NCBI GenBank assembly: GCA_004376295.1
Contig: SOJZ01000034.1
Location: 1 to 37,033 of the forward strand
Direction: 5' to 3'
DNA: 37,033 nucleotides
DNA from: Candidatus Bathyarchaeota archaeon
GTDB taxonomy: Archaea; Thermoproteota; Bathyarchaeia; Bathyarchaeales; Bathyarchaeaceae
Both the position numbers and the translations under genes were made by a program. The notes below the pieces were generated by a model. The model did not search any database, had not been told where the DNA came from, and saw only the letters and a list, made by a program, of their open reading frames with translations. Of this stretch, positions 28,084 through 35,272 are shown piece after piece; the first letter of the stretch is position 1; every line of letters begins with the position of its first letter.

Positions 28084-29628
28084 CTATCTTTCTAGCGTGA
28101 AGACTTTTCTTTGTATGACTCGTGTTGGGACGCGACCAATTAACATTCTTTCTTCTGGTTTTTTGCTTAACCCTATTGGTCGAAGTTTTTTTGCCAATTC
28201 TAAGGCTGTGTTCAATTTTGTGTTTCTTTCGGCGTAAATCTCAAAGAGAACATCACCCTTTTCAATGTGTTCTCCAAGTTTTATTTTCAGTACGACTCCA
28301 GATCCCTTGTCTTTGGGAGCGCCTGCCTCTCTGGCAACTTGAGCGATGCTTCTGTTGTTAATCCATAAGACTCTGCCGTCTTTGTCCGTTGTTATTTCCG
28401 CTTTTTTGTATCCAAGTTTTATGTCCTCAGGCTTTATTCTCGGGTTTCCGCCCTGTGCCTCTATTATTTGTCTGAACTTTCTTTCCGCTTTTCCTGATTT
28501 TAGGAGGCTCTCTGCCTTTTGTTTTCCATTTTCGACCCCAACCATTTCGAAGAGGATGCCTGCAATGCTTGTTGCTTTTTCTTGAAGGTCAACTGGACCC
28601 TTTCCCATGATTGTAGATAATGCTTCTCTTGCTTCTAACGCTGGGCCTATAGCGTATCCGATAGGTTGTTCTCCAAAGGTCACTGCACATTGAACATTCA
28701 TTCCCAATCGCTTCCCTAAATCTATGAAATCGTATGCAAGTACATTTGCGCTGCCGATTGTTTTTACTTTTGCACCTCTTCCAGTTGGGATGTCTATGAC
28801 TACATGTGTGGCGCCTATGGCTTTCTTCTTGCTCATAATTGACGGAAGAAGCAACGGATCTATCGCCAGCGGATACTCAACTTGAATGAAAATGTCATCG
28901 GCAGGAGCTAACTCTAAGGCGCCACCCCAAACCATACAACCATTTGTTTTCTTCACTACATCTCTTATTTCTTCAAGGGTTAGGTTTACTGGACAAAATG
29001 TTTCAACGCGGTCAGCGGTTCCTGCCGGAGAAGTCACTGCTCTAGAGGAAGTTTTAGGTATGATAAAACCAGCAGCGGCGATAATTGGCACTATTAAAAG
29101 TGATGTCTTGTCGCCGGGTACTCCACCTATACTGTGCTTGTCTAGAATTGGAGTTTTATCAAGGGTCAGGGTGCCACCAGTCTCCACCATGGCTTTCGAT
29201 AAAGCTTCAATTTCATCTATGCTTAACCCATGAATATAAAGCGCAGTTACAAAGGACGCGATTTCAATGTCGCTTAGGTGACGTTCCACAACTTCCTCAA
29301 CTATCATTTTTACTTCGTTTTCTCGTAATCTTTCACCACGTATTTTTGCTTGAACATAATTAAGTGCCTCAGGTCTTTCTGCAGGTTGTACTTCAATGAT
29401 TTCTCCGTTCTCTATTCCGAGCTTTGTTGAAATCTCTTGATAGACTCCCACATAGTTACGTGGAAAGTTGTCAGCAATGTTGACGATAGCAATTAAATGT
29501 TCATCTTTATGGGTTATTTTCACTCTGTCAGATGAATGTACACCGATAAGACTCGCGGTTTCATCGTCCAATATGGCGATTCTTCTTCCGCCAGCTTGGA
29601 TATCTAGAAGTCTGGCTTGCAGCTTCAT
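28084..29628 (-). CDS. deoA: AMP phosphorylase
   Basis: First enzyme of the archaeal AMP pathway: AMP + phosphate gives adenine + ribose 1,5-bisphosphate. The 514 residues include an archaea-specific N-terminal domain (about 1-85) and the nucleoside-phosphorylase catalytic region with DKHSIGGVPGDKTSLLIVP and KTSSRAVTSPAGTADRVE. Length and the N-terminal domain separate it from bacterial thymidine phosphorylase (about 440 residues). The ATG has GTGAG ahead. It is divergent from the RuBisCO gene across 95 nt, so the first two pathway steps share a control region. Confidence 0.95.
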   Translation of the reverse strand: MKLQARLLDIQAGGRRIAILDDETASLIGVHSSDRVKITHKDEHLIAIVNIADNFPRNYVGVYQEISTKLGIENGEIIEVQPAERPEALNYVQAKIRGERLRENEVKMIVEEVVERHLSDIEIASFVTALYIHGLSIDEIEALSKAMVETGGTLTLDKTPILDKHSIGGVPGDKTSLLIVPIIAAAGFIIPKTSSRAVTSPAGTADRVETFCPVNLTLEEIRDVVKKTNGCMVWGGALELAPADDIFIQVEYPLAIDPLLLPSIMSKKKAIGATHVVIDIPTGRGAKVKTIGSANVLAYDFIDLGKRLGMNVQCAVTFGEQPIGYAIGPALEAREALSTIMGKGPVDLQEKATSIAGILFEMVGVENGKQKAESLLKSGKAERKFRQIIEAQGGNPRIKPEDIKLGYKKAEITTDKDGRVLWINNRSIAQVAREAGAPKDKGSGVVLKIKLGEHIEKGDVLFEIYAERNTKLNTALELAKKLRPIGLSKKPEERMLIGRVPTRVIQRKVFTLER

Positions 29629-29723
29629 TCAGACTCACTCTTAATCAAAAAGTAAGGCGAATCATTGCTTAAAGGCTTTAAGCAACTCAATCCAATAAAC
29701 AAAATTGAGAGGCTGGAGTCAGT

Positions 29724-30953
29724 TTGAGATACATAGATTTTGTGGATTTCAAATACGAACCTGAAGAAACAGATGTTGTTTGCACGTTCTCCGTTCAACC
29801 AGAAGGCGTCAGCATAGAGGAAGCTGCAGGCGGGGTGGCTGCTGAAAGTTCGATAGGAACGTGGACAGAACTCACAACCGTAAAGTCCTATGTTCAGAAA
29901 CTTGCCGCTCGCGTATTTAGCATAGAAAGAAACAATGTGAAAATAGCTTATCCGATTGAACTTTTCGAGCCGAGAAACATGCCCAACATATTGAGTAGTG
30001 TTTCAGGGAATGTTTTCGGATTGAAAACTCTTAAGAACTTACGGCTTGAAGACATCCACTTTTCCTCGGAGCTTATCAGAAGCTTCAAGGGTCCAAAATA
30101 TGGTATTGGAGGAGTTCGAAAGCTTTTGAAAGTTTATGATCGGCCATTGGTGGGAACGATAATCAAGCCCAAACTTGGGTTGAAAACTTTGGATCACGCA
30201 AAAGTTGCTCATGAAGCTTGGGTCGGAGGATGTGACATAGTAAAGGACGATGAGAACCTAAGCAATCAAAGGTTTAATCCATTTGAAGACCGTGTCATTA
30301 AAACATTAGAGAGTAGAGACCGAGCTGAAGAAGAAACTGGTGAAAGAAAAGTTTACATGGTTAATATCACAGCGGAAACGAGGGAGATGATAAAAAGAGC
30401 TGAATTTGTGCTTAGCCGTAGTGGAGAATATGTCATGGTTGACATTCTAACTTGTGGTTTTTCCGCTTTACAGACGCTACTTGAACAAGACTTTAACCTT
30501 ATAATTCATGCGCATAGGGCTGGACATGCGGCGTTTACTAGGAATCCTAAGCATGGAATTTCGATGCGAGTAATAGCCAAAATAGCTAGGATAATAGGTG
30601 TAGATCAACTTCACGTAGGCACAGTTGTTGGAAAAATGTTTGAAACAAGAGAGGAAGTTGCGGAGAACTGTGAAGCATTAAAGGAGGAAATGAGCGGATT
30701 AAAACGAGTTTTACCCGTTGCTTCAGGCGGTTTGCATCCAAGATTAGTTCCAGCACTAATCGAGTTTTTCGGAAAAGACTTCGTCATTCAAGCTGGAGGA
30801 GGAATTCACGGTCACAGAGATGGAACAGTTGCAGGAGCAAAAGCTATGCGGCAAGCAGTAGATGCGACTTTAGAAGCCATATCTCTGAGAGAATATGCTA
30901 AAGAACACAGAGAACTTAAAACAGCACTGCAAATATGGGAACAGCACGCCTAG
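29724..30953 (+). CDS. rbcL: Form III RuBisCO large subunit
   Basis: Carboxylates ribulose 1,5-bisphosphate to two 3-phosphoglycerates, here as the last step of AMP salvage. The 409 residues keep every catalytic residue: K148 in GTIIKPKLGLK, the carbamylated K174 with D176 and E177 in DIVKDDEN, H264-R265 in HAHRAGHA, H297 in QLHVGT, K304 in VVGKMFE, and the phosphate loops ASGGLHP and GGGIHGH. It is shorter than plant forms and has no small subunit nearby, as expected for form III. Start is a TTG with GGAG 5 nt ahead. Confidence 0.96.
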   Translation: MRYIDFVDFKYEPEETDVVCTFSVQPEGVSIEEAAGGVAAESSIGTWTELTTVKSYVQKLAARVFSIERNNVKIAYPIELFEPRNMPNILSSVSGNVFGLKTLKNLRLEDIHFSSELIRSFKGPKYGIGGVRKLLKVYDRPLVGTIIKPKLGLKTLDHAKVAHEAWVGGCDIVKDDENLSNQRFNPFEDRVIKTLESRDRAEEETGERKVYMVNITAETREMIKRAEFVLSRSGEYVMVDILTCGFSALQTLLEQDFNLIIHAHRAGHAAFTRNPKHGISMRVIAKIARIIGVDQLHVGTVVGKMFETREEVAENCEALKEEMSGLKRVLPVASGGLHPRLVPALIEFFGKDFVIQAGGGIHGHRDGTVAGAKAMRQAVDATLEAISLREYAKEHRELKTALQIWEQHA

Positions 30954-30961
30954 CAGTTTGG

Positions 30962-31882
30962 TTACTCAAGAATCCATGGATATTTTCTATGCATCACTTG
31001 GATTATTGAGTGAGGAGAGATTATCCCCTCTTCACATATTATGCCGTGAACAAAGTCTCTCCTTGTAATATCAAAGGCAGGATTCCTTATGATTAAGTTT
31101 TTTGGAGGATTTTTCCAAATTTCGTTTTGTCTTCTTTCCTCTATTTTTTCATAGTCCCCGTACCTAGTTACAGGGTCGAACTTCAAAAGTTCAGAAACCA
31201 CGTAGAAGGGTGTTCTGGCTTCCTGAGCAATGAGGGCGATCATACTTGTTCCAATCTTGTTCACCACATTTCCCTCTGAGGTTATGGCATCTGCTCCCAC
31301 TAATACAAGGTCAACTTGATTCATGAAAAAGCGTGCAGCCGAATCCACAATCAAAGTAGTCTTCACGCCTAACTCTAACATTTCTTTCGCGGTTATTCTG
31401 CCTTGAAAGACAGGTCTACTTTCAGTACAGATAACTTCAAAGGATCTTCCTTCTAGTTTAGCTCTTCTCAACAAATAAGTGACTGTTGATGAGTGGCAGT
31501 GAGTTAGGACTACTGAATTGTTCCTAATTCTTCTAGCTCCTATTTCAGCAATTTTTCTCTTTGAATTTTCAAGATTTTTGAGAAACTGTTCAGAAGCCGA
31601 GGTGACTATCTCGGTTAGTTCCTCAACTTTTTCATGGATATTTTTTTCTACTTGACTTGTTATCAATCGAACAGCGTTTCTCATCAACGGTTCAGTCTCT
31701 CTGGAAGAAAAAAGGATTTCCTTTGCCTCTGAGAGTTCCTTCAAAAATTCCTTTTTGTTCTTCGCTTTTGTTTCTTTCGCTAGAGTTTCTATCGCTTTTA
31801 TGGCGGCTACAGCAACGTTTCTGGCACCTTGAACTTCAAGCTGTTTTATTCTCATAGCGGTTGCTTGAACTGTTTTCAACAA
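30962..31882 (-). CDS. Ribose-1,5-bisphosphate isomerase
   Basis: Converts ribose 1,5-bisphosphate to ribulose 1,5-bisphosphate, the substrate of RuBisCO. It belongs to the eIF2B-alpha/MtnA-like fold. The 306 residues have the catalytic Cys129 in LTHCHSST and Asp198 in LVGADAI, the residues assigned in the Thermococcus enzyme, and the conserved ending RDFVHGIICEEGIISP. MtnA-like methylthioribose-phosphate isomerase is the alternative, but with AMP phosphorylase and form III RuBisCO next door this assignment is safe. Start is a TTG with GGGTGA ahead. Convergent with rbcL, 8 nt apart. Confidence 0.94.
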   Translation of the reverse strand: MLKTVQATAMRIKQLEVQGARNVAVAAIKAIETLAKETKAKNKKEFLKELSEAKEILFSSRETEPLMRNAVRLITSQVEKNIHEKVEELTEIVTSASEQFLKNLENSKRKIAEIGARRIRNNSVVLTHCHSSTVTYLLRRAKLEGRSFEVICTESRPVFQGRITAKEMLELGVKTTLIVDSAARFFMNQVDLVLVGADAITSEGNVVNKIGTSMIALIAQEARTPFYVVSELLKFDPVTRYGDYEKIEERRQNEIWKNPPKNLIIRNPAFDITRRDFVHGIICEEGIISPHSIIQVMHRKYPWILE

Positions 31883-31951: not shown

Positions 31952-32791
31952 TTGGCTGTCTTTGTTACAAAAGTTGACGGAACGAAACAGGTGTTTGACA
32001 GAGAAAAAGTTGTTAGGACATGTCTGAGAATGGGTGCTACTCGAGAAATCGCTGAGAAGATTGCTGAAAACATTGAAATGACGGTTTATGATGGCATAGA
32101 AACAAGGAAAATTCTCAAGATGATTTTTGGGCAGTTATGTAAGTATAAGCCAGCTGTCAAGCATCAGATTGACCTACGTAAAGCTTTGAGTTTGATGAAG
32201 CCGAAACCTGACTTTGAACGTTTTATCCAGATATTGCTGAGCGAGCACGGCTATAAAGTTACTCCGAATCAGATTATAAGGGGCAAATGTGTAGAACATG
32301 AAGTCGACGCTGTCGCAAGAAAAAACGGCGAAACATACATTGTAGAAGTGAAACACCATTTCAGCTATCACACTCCAACAGGTCTAGATGTAAGCCGCAT
32401 TACAAGAGCAGTTTTCGAAGATGTAACGGAAGGATTCAAACTTGGATTGAACAACTTGAAAATTGATAAAGCAATGATAGTTTGTAACACGAAACTTTCA
32501 GAACATGCTAAACGTTATGCAAAATGTAGAGGGATTCATCATATAGGATGGGGTTCACCTCCAAACCGTAACTTACAAACTATGATTGAAGAGAAGAAGC
32601 TGCATCCTTTAACTTATCTTAAAGGGTTAAACACCGCAACAAGAGAAAAATTAGCATCTGCCGGAATAGTTCTGCTAAAACAGCTAACCGCAAAAAATCC
32701 AGAAGAACTTAGGAGAGAAACAGGAATTCATAAAGAAACTCTTAAGTTAATGATTGAGAAAGCTGGAGCAATACTTTCAGAAAATGCATAA
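31952..32791 (+). CDS. ATP-cone / Mrr-like nuclease-fold / HhH protein
   Basis: A 279-residue protein with three parts. Residues 1-85 are an ATP-cone (VTKVDGTKQVFDREKVVRTC, then YDGIETRKILKMIF), a nucleotide-binding regulatory domain best known from ribonucleotide reductase. Residues about 88-210 look like a restriction-endonuclease fold, with D in EHEVDAVA and the E-x-K of YIVEVKHH as a possible PD-(D/E)xK site. The C-terminal 50 residues resemble helix-hairpin-helix repeats (LNTATREKLASAGIVLLKQL), often used to bind DNA. TTG start with AGGAT ahead; it is divergent from the isomerase gene, 69 nt apart. Function unknown; a nucleotide-controlled DNA-acting protein is inferred. Confidence 0.82.
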   Translation: MAVFVTKVDGTKQVFDREKVVRTCLRMGATREIAEKIAENIEMTVYDGIETRKILKMIFGQLCKYKPAVKHQIDLRKALSLMKPKPDFERFIQILLSEHGYKVTPNQIIRGKCVEHEVDAVARKNGETYIVEVKHHFSYHTPTGLDVSRITRAVFEDVTEGFKLGLNNLKIDKAMIVCNTKLSEHAKRYAKCRGIHHIGWGSPPNRNLQTMIEEKKLHPLTYLKGLNTATREKLASAGIVLLKQLTAKNPEELRRETGIHKETLKLMIEKAGAILSENA

Positions 32792-32887: not shown

Positions 32888-33532
32888 ATGATGTGGATTT
32901 TGATGTCACAGGTAGAAACGAACCTCGAAGCTTTATGCAAATTAGCAAAAAAATTCGGGGTGACAAACGCAGTATCCTTTAATGCTAAACGTGTTGTTGT
33001 TGACGAAAGAGTTCGACTAAAGTGTCTTGTGCCAGTTTGCGACGACTACGGCTTGAATTTGATGTGCCCGCCTAACGTGATGAGTGTTCAGGAATTCAGA
33101 GAAATATTAGCCAGATATAATTGGGCGATTCTCATCCAGATTGAAGAGCTGATACCAGCTGAAATGATGAAGGAAATACAGCAAGCTGATGACGTTGCGG
33201 CGCTGTACAAAAGCACTAGGTTCAAGGATAGTTACAAGAAAACTTTTGATCCGATCAAATTGAATCTACATCGTGTAGTCCACAAAGTGGAGGCGCAGGC
33301 ATTTGCATTAGGGTATCGTTTTGCAACAGGTTTCATAGCGGGATCGTGTAAATTATGCCCCGAATGTGTGGCGAAAAAATCGCAAGAACCCTGCAGACAT
33401 CCCTTCCGAGCCCGACCTCCCATGGAAGCTGTCGGAATCGATGTGTTCAAGACAGCAGAAAACGCAGGCTTGTCTTTTGATATTCCTCCAAAGAACAAGA
33501 CAGTATGGAACGGACTTGTCTTAGTCACTTGA
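32888..33532 (+). CDS. DUF2284 metal-binding protein
   Basis: A 214-residue protein of the DUF2284 family, considered metal binding and found mostly in anaerobes. Cys groups are KCLVPVCDDYG and NLMCPPN in the N-terminal half, and the ferredoxin-like SCKLCPECVAKKSQEPCRHP in the C-terminal half, where the spacing suits a [4Fe-4S] cluster. The trailing RPPMEAVGIDVFKTAENAGL is a family signature. Activity is unknown, though members are often near radical-SAM or corrinoid enzymes. Several in-frame ATGs lie near the beginning (32888, 32903), and none has a strong ribosome binding site. Confidence 0.88.
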   Translation: MMWILMSQVETNLEALCKLAKKFGVTNAVSFNAKRVVVDERVRLKCLVPVCDDYGLNLMCPPNVMSVQEFREILARYNWAILIQIEELIPAEMMKEIQQADDVAALYKSTRFKDSYKKTFDPIKLNLHRVVHKVEAQAFALGYRFATGFIAGSCKLCPECVAKKSQEPCRHPFRARPPMEAVGIDVFKTAENAGLSFDIPPKNKTVWNGLVLVT

Positions 33533-33649: not shown

Positions 33650-34045
33650 TCATTTTGAAGTTGGCTCGTAGGTTAGGCAGAAGCTACATTCTTCCATTTT
33701 GATTTTTGGGTCTGTTTTCTGACAAAACGGGCACATCAAACCATTTTTGCGTATCACTATGCATATTTGGCAGAATAGTCCTAGAAATTCGGTTCTTTTT
33801 GAGCTTCCACCTACGAGCAGGTTTATCATACTATTTATCAGAGGTTGTATACCTTTTACGTTGTCAATTTTTATCACGTGACCCCTAACATGTCGAGTGT
33901 ATTTACTTACTGCAGATTGAGACACTCCTAGGATCTCAGCTACTTGGTCCTGTTTTAGACCGTATGTTTCCACGAGTTCTTTGGCCATTGTTGCTTTTAT
34001 TGCTGGTATAACTGACTTTACGGCGATTTCGCAGGGCAGTATCAA
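33650..34045 (-). CDS. HTH transcriptional regulator with zinc-ribbon tail (COG2522-like)
   Basis: A 131-residue regulator. Residues about 1-60 are a helix-turn-helix of the archaeal COG2522/ThiR N-terminal type: ILPCEIAVKSVIPAIKA, then LKQDQVAEILGVSQSAVSKY. The C-terminal 45 residues carry three Cys pairs (CQIC, CPFC, CSFC), likely a zinc ribbon; no ThiN or other ligand domain is attached. TTG start. The ribosome binding site GGTGA is inside a perfect hairpin (34045-34060). The gene is divergent from another HTH gene at 34142, with two identical palindromic sites between them, so it probably controls both. DNA target and signal are unknown. Confidence 0.85.
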   Translation of the reverse strand: MILPCEIAVKSVIPAIKATMAKELVETYGLKQDQVAEILGVSQSAVSKYTRHVRGHVIKIDNVKGIQPLINSMINLLVGGSSKRTEFLGLFCQICIVIRKNGLMCPFCQKTDPKIKMEECSFCLTYEPTSK

Positions 34046-34060
34046 GCGGTTTTCACCGCT
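34045..34060 (-). promoter_or_regulatory. Hairpin that buries the ribosome binding site of the HTH regulator
   Basis: On the minus strand AGCGGT-GAAA-ACCGCT forms a 6-bp stem closed by a GAAA tetraloop. The stem contains GGT of the GGTGA ribosome binding site and ends on the first base of the TTG start codon. Predicted transcription start is close to the 5' edge of the hairpin. Confidence 0.5.
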
Positions 34061-34078
34061 ATTTAGCTGTACGGGGAA

Positions 34079-34088
34079 AGTATATAAG
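34079..34088 (-). promoter_or_regulatory. TATA box of the HTH regulator gene
   Basis: CTTATATACT on the minus strand, about 38 nt ahead of the TTG start. It abuts the first palindromic site, so a bound regulator would block TBP/TFB. Confidence 0.5.
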
Positions 34089-34089
34089 G

Positions 34090-34124
34090 ATGACGTATGT
34101 CATATTAACTATGACGTATGTCAT
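34090..34124. promoter_or_regulatory. Tandem palindromic operators, ATGAC-GTAT-GTCAT twice
   Basis: Two identical 14-nt sites, ATGACGTATGTCAT at 34090-34103 and 34111-34124, have centres 21 nt apart, two turns of the helix. Each is a perfect 5-bp inverted repeat around a 4-nt core. The A/T-rich spacer (ATTAACT) between them could hold the TATA box of the rightward gene. A related site, ATGACATACATCAG, lies at 34212-34225 inside that gene. Confidence 0.7.
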
Positions 34125-34141
34125 AAGAGGACGTGAGAGAC

Positions 34142-35272
34142 ATGAAACCCACAGAAACTTCCCCTCTCCTTTTCCCTCAACCTACTTCTGAAAACATTTT
34201 CAACAATCCTTATGACATACATCAGCGGAAGTCTGGCGCCACGATGACCAAAATTCGTTCAAGACCACCACAAGTGACACAAAGAAAAATCGGCATAGCA
34301 GAAGTGCTGGGAGAGGCGAAAGAAACCTGCAAAGACTGCCATCCATTAACTCCAATGATATGTGTAACAAGATGCAACATTTGGAAACTGAAGAATGAAC
34401 TCAGAAAACTAGACCGAAAGATGAAAAACCCCAAGTTCATGACAAACTTACTAAACACGTTAAAGAATAGGAGACGCCTACAACTTTTGGAAACACTCTC
34501 GAAAGGACGATATTCCATGATTAGACTTCAGCAAAAACTGAAAAAACTCGGCTATTATCATAGCCGACGAACAATAGCCAAAGAATACGTTGCCCCCTTA
34601 ATAGAGGTTGGACTAGTTGAAGAAAACCATAACAACTATCACACGACGGTGTTCGGCTGCAAGCTTAACGAATTAATAAAAGATTTCAATGACATTGGGC
34701 AACTTCTGCCACCTCACTCCGAATGTTATGAAGAAAAAACGGTTAAAGCATTGTTTGAAAGCTCAAAAACCTATGAAGAACTAGAATTCCTAATCCCGAC
34801 TGAAAGCCTATCAAGAGTTCTTAAACGTCTTCACGTGGCAAACCTCATAACAAAAGACGATCAAAACAATTACATCTTCTACTTCAACACAAGAAGAGAT
34901 CCTCAACAAGAAAAGCTTTCACCAACGGAAAAACGCGTTCACCAAAGCATCCCAGAAGAAGGCATAACAGCCAAGAAACTTGCCAATAAAACAAACATTT
35001 CCCTACGGAGAACCTACAAATATCTAAGAAAACTCAGAGGCAAGAAACTTACATTTAAAAGGAAGCGTCCAAAAACATATGCCCTAACAAAAGAAGGAAC
35101 ACAGACCGCCAGACTTCTTGAAAAAATCCGCGTACTACTCATAGAGTTTGCACAAGCCTCGGCAGAAATCACAACAAAACCCTTGGGAATGATTCAGCAA
35201 ATCCCGGTGCCAAATGTTCCTAAAAAGAGAAGAGAGAAGCCAATGCAAATCTTGGCTCAGCCTAACGTCTAG
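34142..35272 (+). CDS. Multi-winged-helix archaeal DNA-binding protein
   Basis: A 376-residue predicted DNA-binding protein. An N-terminal disordered stretch leads to a Cys module (CKDCHPLTPMICVTRCNIWK; C-x2-C-H and two more Cys) seen in some archaeal transcription regulators and probably zinc binding. Three winged-helix-like segments follow: LQLLETLSKGRYSMIRLQQK (about 110-180), the region around YEELEFLIPTESLSRVLKRL, and IPEEGITAKKLANKTNISLR with LRKLRGKKL. The C-terminus is basic. The ATG at 34142 has GTGAG nearby; the in-frame GTG at 34133 is less likely. Divergent from the HTH regulator across tandem operators. Target genes unknown. Confidence 0.75.
   Translation: MKPTETSPLLFPQPTSENIFNNPYDIHQRKSGATMTKIRSRPPQVTQRKIGIAEVLGEAKETCKDCHPLTPMICVTRCNIWKLKNELRKLDRKMKNPKFMTNLLNTLKNRRRLQLLETLSKGRYSMIRLQQKLKKLGYYHSRRTIAKEYVAPLIEVGLVEENHNNYHTTVFGCKLNELIKDFNDIGQLLPPHSECYEEKTVKALFESSKTYEELEFLIPTESLSRVLKRLHVANLITKDDQNNYIFYFNTRRDPQQEKLSPTEKRVHQSIPEEGITAKKLANKTNISLRRTYKYLRKLRGKKLTFKRKRPKTYALTKEGTQTARLLEKIRVLLIEFAQASAEITTKPLGMIQQIPVPNVPKKRREKPMQILAQPNV

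Follow-up and report, generated by a model that had tools for sequence, protein, structure and literature searches.

A palindromic operator pair between divergent regulator genes of a Bathyarchaeota archaeon: predicted target of a small cysteine-rich HTH protein and putative arm of a leader RNA hairpin

Two identical palindromes separate two divergently oriented genes for helix-turn-helix (HTH) proteins in the genome of Candidatus Bathyarchaeota archaeon, and a related sequence lies within the rightward gene. This raises the question of which of the two proteins would bind there, which genes would respond, and whether the third site is an operator at all. The stretch of DNA analyzed (the window) comprises 37,033 nt (positions 1–37,033 of contig SOJZ01000034.1; assembly GCA_004376295.1) of a 1.89-Mb genome. 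The palindrome ATGACGTATGTCAT was found, exact and identical, at 34090–34103 and 34111–34124, its centres 21 bp apart, precisely as described in the initial annotation of this locus. Simulating the window 60 times with a Markov model never gave an identical pair of such palindromes within 60 bp. Nor does the motif occur at random throughout the genome, an objection foreseen from the start; exact ATGACRYRYGTCAT has two matches in 1.89 Mb, both at 34090–34124. The genome scan for an ATGAC-N4-GTCAT regulon, also suggested initially, yielded only three matches in the organism itself (the two palindromes and a chance-like ATGACTTCAGTCAT on contig C39), but in relatives the exact motif was found at further genes. 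Sequence comparison supports reading both 14-mers as genuine operators of one or the other HTH protein, placed to control both genes. The features of the locus are as follows:

33650–34045, minus strand: small HTH regulator of 131 aa, proposed autorepressor (Pfam HTH_3, invariant Cys, motif co-occurrence)
34073–34080, plus strand: GGGGAAAG, putative rightward BRE (from the pattern of GAAA presence)
34081–34088, no strand: TATATAAG, predicted TATA box common to both directions, conserved in all orthologous regions; leftward reading CTTATATA
34090–34103, no strand: operator 1, ATGACGTATGTCAT; beside all 30 orthologs, the sole one in genomes without the divergent gene; overlapping the leftward BRE position, directly 3′ of the rightward TATA
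34111–34124, no strand: operator 2, ATGACGTATGTCAT; second of the two-operator arrangement, co-varies with site 3, at the predicted rightward start; its RNA form supplies the leader hairpin's 5′ arm
34112–34127, plus strand: leader stem 5′ arm (RNAalifold on 20 leaders; also the window's own minimum-energy fold)
34142–35272, plus strand: divergent winged-helix regulator of 376 aa (HTH_45 and TrmB-like matches; conserved CxxC-x7-CxxxC)
34160–34178, plus strand: pyrimidine tract TCCCCTCTCCTTTTCCCTC in the hairpin loop, present in most relatives' leaders (alignment)
34209–34224, plus strand: leader stem 3′ arm, holding most of the "third site" at 34212–34225 (covariation, RNAalifold, window fold)

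Beyond the gene pair, the ORF at 31952–32791, which adjoins DUF2284 (32888–33532), has Pfam matches to Mrr_cat, ATP-cone, and an AF1548-like C-terminal region. The genes at 28084–31882 were recognized by eye from their translations as AMP phosphorylase, a form III RuBisCO-like protein, and ribose-1,5-bisphosphate isomerase, which we take to be the archaeal AMP salvage set.

Assignment of the operators to the small leftward protein

Orthologs of both HTH proteins were collected from 60 relatives and the regions compared in one orientation. Beside all 30 small-HTH orthologs read, an operator stands next to the conserved TATATAAG or a close variant of it; this operator is exact except in G039 and G048 (one mismatch each). 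A second operator is present at 18–22 bp wherever the divergent gene, or what remains of it, stands opposite, so the spacing of exactly two helical turns claimed initially holds for the window (21 bp) but is not strict among relatives; cooperative binding across the two sites would be possible at such distances. In the six genomes of genus g13 that were read, the divergent gene was not found and a single operator is kept, whereas three genomes (G013, G020, and G041) have two operators although no divergent gene was detected in them, through loss, decay, or the end of a contig. Where copies of the divergent gene lie away from the small gene (G045, G057, and G048b), no operator was found upstream of them.

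The motif was present in 33 of 36 genomes with a small-HTH ortholog and in 1 of 25 without (Fisher p = 1e-12), and its association with the divergent gene, from the same genome counts, was weaker (p = 1e-4). Class-wide, it occurred in 70 of 98 genomes with a small homolog versus 5 of 91 without (p = 2e-22). The exact motif accounted for 176 sites in the 189 class genomes, compared with 3 for the reversed control. About 28 class genomes contain a homolog (at E ≤ 1e-20) and no exact motif, probably reflecting paralogs or drifted sites, and five contain the motif and no detected homolog. Since the motif tracks the small gene from genome to genome and is kept even without the rightward gene, the operators can with good confidence be predicted to be bound by the small leftward protein; the initial proposal, which left the choice between the two HTH proteins, is thereby narrowed to the product of 33650–34045.

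This protein matches HTH_3 (PF01381) with 24.8 bits against a cut-off of 23 bits, at residues ∼22–51, only profile positions 2–31 of 55 being covered. Seven cysteines are invariant in 30 orthologs, namely C5 and the CxxC pairs C92/C95, C105/C108, and C120/C123. Pfam and NCBIfam searches revealed no second domain, and a PDB sequence search gave no convincing solved relative. The AlphaFold model (two-sequence alignment; mean pLDDT 58) contains helices only around the HTH and was too poor for a fold search.

Promoter layout and the leader RNA

The initial annotation placed a leftward TATA box at 34079–34088, next to the operators, and a likely rightward one between them. The former corresponds to the conserved TATATAAG at 34081–34088, which reads as a TATA box in both directions. 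The latter was discarded; the AT-rich spacer separating the two operators (ATTAACT in the window) is not conserved in relatives, and the pairing described below can be explained only if operator 2 is transcribed. To the left of the conserved box, GAAA, BRE-like for rightward transcription, is present in all two-operator regions read (in G048, by direct reading of the region) and absent from all six single-operator regions, where the divergent gene is missing. The covariation of operator 2 bases with site 3 requires that operator 2 is transcribed and, thus, that the rightward start lies at or before about 34111; operator 2 would roughly coincide with the start site, some 25 nt from the TATA centre. 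On the other side, an inverted repeat (AGCGGTTTTCACCGCT, 34045–34060) lies over the leftward start codon and its Shine-Dalgarno sequence; it is compensated to AACGGTTTTCACCGTT in G041 and is absent from distant relatives.

The divergent protein likely starts, in this genus, at ATG 34142 or GTG 34133; ATG 34244 is a possible alternative, not conserved, being ATA in the near relative G003 (JAUWDY010000004.1). The in-frame ATG 34142 of the window's genus is situated within the hairpin loop, with its AAGAGG reaching into the stem's 5′ arm.

The related variant reported within the rightward gene was confirmed as ATGACATACATCAG at 34212–34225, with two mismatches. Across 21 genomes, a directional core, ATGACATACG, is kept there, which is not a palindrome and is inverted with respect to both operators; it lies 64–111 nt from operator 2 without fixed phase. 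Comparison of the relatives' intergenic regions, as envisaged initially, confirmed the operator beside the small HTH orthologs but not the third palindrome, which is lost in many of them. Site 3 was picked by its match to the consensus (in G053, exceptionally, by eye), and duplexes of operator 2 plus its 3′ flank with site 3 plus its 5′ flank were evaluated. Native pairs averaged −26.8 kcal/mol; when operator 1 replaced operator 2, the mean was −14.9. None of 5,000 swapped arm pairs (−21.8 kcal/mol, SD 0.8) was as low as native, and none of 500 shuffles reached the native paired percentage or covariation score, although both tests use related sequences and their significance is therefore overstated. 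RNAalifold on a MAFFT alignment of 20 leaders returned only this helix, with 12 pairs, six of them changed on both sides; counting 16 pairs, 89% of cells were paired versus 16–57% for slid partners. In G050 (GUGAUAUACGUC), pairing is retained through three G-U pairs, in G039 both stem arms are changed, and in G002 the motif is lost and a GAGAG/CUCUC pairing gained. The stem also extends past the 14-mer (AGAA/UUCU in G056 versus AGGA/UCCU in G059). The leader of the window folds alike (34112–34127 with 34209–34224), with an overall energy modestly below that of shuffles (z −1.64). In G005, G007–G011, and G027, the 3′ arm is immediately succeeded by a Shine-Dalgarno-like sequence and an ATG.

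It is highly improbable, given these data, that the third site is a real auxiliary DNA operator and its complementarity to operator 2 a mere by-product of one near-palindromic consensus. The site is indeed near the operator consensus in G000, G003, G027, G018, and G010, but in G002, G050, G008, G011, G053, and G039, operator identity is lost while G-U or compensatory changes preserve the pairing, which runs beyond the 14-mer. Looping to a third operator, as originally suggested, was rejected because of the covariation together with the loss of the palindrome. The missing phase, the decayed palindrome, and the maintained pairing with transcribed operator 2 indicate that the third site serves not as an operator but as one arm of a conserved leader hairpin, as predicted from covariation. 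This also weakens the proposal of binding by the divergent winged-helix protein (34142), with control of both genes and looping to the third site, to which we assign very little weight. That protein is of a DNA-binding type and its presence accompanies the second site; yet sites are kept in 12 of 61 genomes without a detected divergent gene, copies of this gene apart from the small HTH gene are without sites, and the third site has the properties of an arm in an RNA stem.

Motif sites in relatives and the putative signal

Among non-self exact sites in relatives, 42 of 54 adjoin a TATA-like hexamer, compared with 4.7% of random positions, the true contrast being smaller because random positions include coding DNA. 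Targets were annotated from the nearest ORFs and Pfam. A YedY/MsrP-like molybdopterin protein (Oxidored_molyb) accounts for 18 flanking ORFs in 11 genomes, and a TFB paralog (TFIIB) for 10 ORFs in 10 genomes. Single or few neighbours encode NifU, thioredoxin, glutaredoxin with ferredoxin-thioredoxin reductase (FeThRed_B), flavodoxin, FMN reductase (FMN_red), DsrE, ferredoxin, HSP20, and DUF116 proteins. The motif also adjoins the TATA box of a structured RNA.

This non-coding RNA (CCCGAGACnGUUGAGG, a pyrimidine-rich loop, then CCUCAACnGCGGGAAAG) occurs in several genomes of family f1 (loci L076, at 1515–1735 plus a second copy, L080, L086, L092, L098, L128, L130, and L134), often directly 3′ of the operator and in tandem in G011. 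An Rfam search of 16 loci in relatives gave no match at E ≤ 0.1, and a tRNA scan of operator-linked non-coding stretches in relatives found none. The shared, 5′-terminal-like sequence AUCUCUC(A/C/G)GA(U/C)C follows the operator by a few bases in otherwise unrelated transcripts, both of genes and of RNAs (L061, L064, L068, L076, L082, L084, L090, L096, and L100) and is possibly an initiator or leader element. In three g13 genomes (L067, L068, and L072), a 336-aa winged-helix regulator of the SERTVRYHLQLLE type adjoins the operator-controlled TFB.

Exact sites in the genome of the window, as in that of G003, were found at this locus only. A regulon in the former was considered and rejected; one-mismatch matches on contigs C2 and C10 lie inside ORFs, and no operator was seen upstream of its two TFB genes. 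The redox regulon is therefore known from relatives only, and in the window's species the circuit may act solely on the gene pair and, via the divergent regulator, on further genes.

The target genes, together with the seven invariant cysteines, point to a redox or reactive-sulfur response as the signal. Another kind of stress (e.g. sulfur species or a metal) is conceivable, if less likely, with the Cys array forming a structural zinc ribbon; CxxC pairs are typical of zinc sites, and the targets include DsrE, the YedY-like protein, HSP20, and NifU. The identifiable small targets are, however, dominated by thioredoxin, glutaredoxin, ferredoxin-thioredoxin reductase, and flavodoxin. As to the direction of control, the small HTH protein might instead be an activator recruiting TBP/TFB at the leftward TATA, positive for its own gene and repressive rightward. 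An operator that directly precedes a TATA box might in principle serve an activator; operator 1 adjoins the leftward TATA on its upstream side, and the site also precedes TATA at several targets (TFB in L058 and L064). We nevertheless regard activation as unlikely; operator 1 overlaps the BRE position so that no gap is left, the site in L060 and L063 lies between TATA and gene, as for a repressor, and MsvR, with a like geometry, represses (PMC3729527).

Proposed mechanism and comparison with known systems

Operator conservation, its dependence on the small gene, the target genes, and the RNA covariation were computed directly. From these sequence data we infer protein–DNA binding, repression rather than activation, a redox signal, the start site, and an effect of the hairpin, and the small protein is a probable autorepressor of the redox type. 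It would sit over one TATA box common to both directions. With operator 1 covering the leftward BRE position, its own gene would be repressed; with operators 1 and 2 spanning the rightward stretch from TATA to start site, so would the divergent winged-helix regulator. Oxidation, reactive sulfur species, or loss of a metal or cluster at the CxxC sites would release the protein and derepress both genes. The rightward mRNA would begin at or just before operator 2, the RNA form of which would pair with the "third site" ∼100 nt further 3′; the stem, ending beside the ribosome-binding site in many relatives, probably tunes translation of the divergent regulator or stability of its mRNA. Taken as a whole, this model of an autorepressor, a shared TATA box, redox-type release, and an operator 2 leader stem appears fairly likely to be correct.

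Several archaeal regulators invite comparison. SurR of Thermococcales is a small ArsR-type winged-helix regulator with a CxxC switch that controls redox and sulfur genes. The small protein resembles it in size, CxxC motifs, and redox/sulfur targets, as judged by sequence, but has no ArsR-type winged-helix match. Its N-terminal LPCEIAVKSVIPAIKA...QxxVAEILGVSQSAVSKY presumably resembles the HTH part of archaeal ThiR/ThiN regulators (COG2522-like); unlike these, it has no C-terminal ThiN domain (131 aa; Pfam/NCBIfam) and carries a Cys-rich tail instead. A literature search on COG2522, ThiN regulators, and Bathyarchaeota regulators found none. MsvR of methanogens (Methanothermobacter and Methanosarcina) has a V4R domain and binds TTCGN8CGAA-type boxes; in Methanothermobacter, these overlap the BRE/TATA of its own promoter as well as the start site on the divergent side, and MsvR represses, with redox-dependent binding (PMC3729527). 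Shared features are the archaeal origin, conserved cysteines, and, as predicted for the small protein, autoregulation; the sequence layout here would fit inverted repeats over the own BRE/TATA and the divergent start, and the seven invariant cysteines and redox-type targets may hint at redox-dependent binding. The small protein differs in its HTH_3-type match and three CxxC pairs, in its predicted box (ATGACRYRYGTCAT rather than TTCGN8CGAA), in having no Pfam match to V4R at E ≤ 1, and in its divergent partner, which is a regulator and not an oxidative-stress operon. The best reading is that it would be MsvR-like in layout but unrelated to MsvR. Haloferax volcanii has a thiol regulator from the TrmB family that acts in oxidative stress (PMC9426492); it shares the archaeal thiol-type regulation but has a different DNA-binding domain, a TrmB-type winged helix.

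A more far-reaching version, which we consider rather doubtful, would have one 14-bp palindrome act at two levels, as DNA operator and as the leader-stem 5′ arm setting how well the divergent regulator is translated or how stable its mRNA is; the RNA helix might itself be recognised by the repressor, and in relatives the operator would also switch an alternative TFB and a structured small RNA, a redox regulon reprogramming the basal transcription machinery.

No regulatory circuit described for the Bathyarchaeota, a large uncultured lineage, was found in the literature, and here binder, operator, and target set could be named, as predictions, from sequence alone. A DNA operator that overlaps an RNA stem arm would be a clear instance of a single sequence under selection on two levels, and a redox-type regulon with a TFB paralog would bear on the archaeal use of multiple TFBs.
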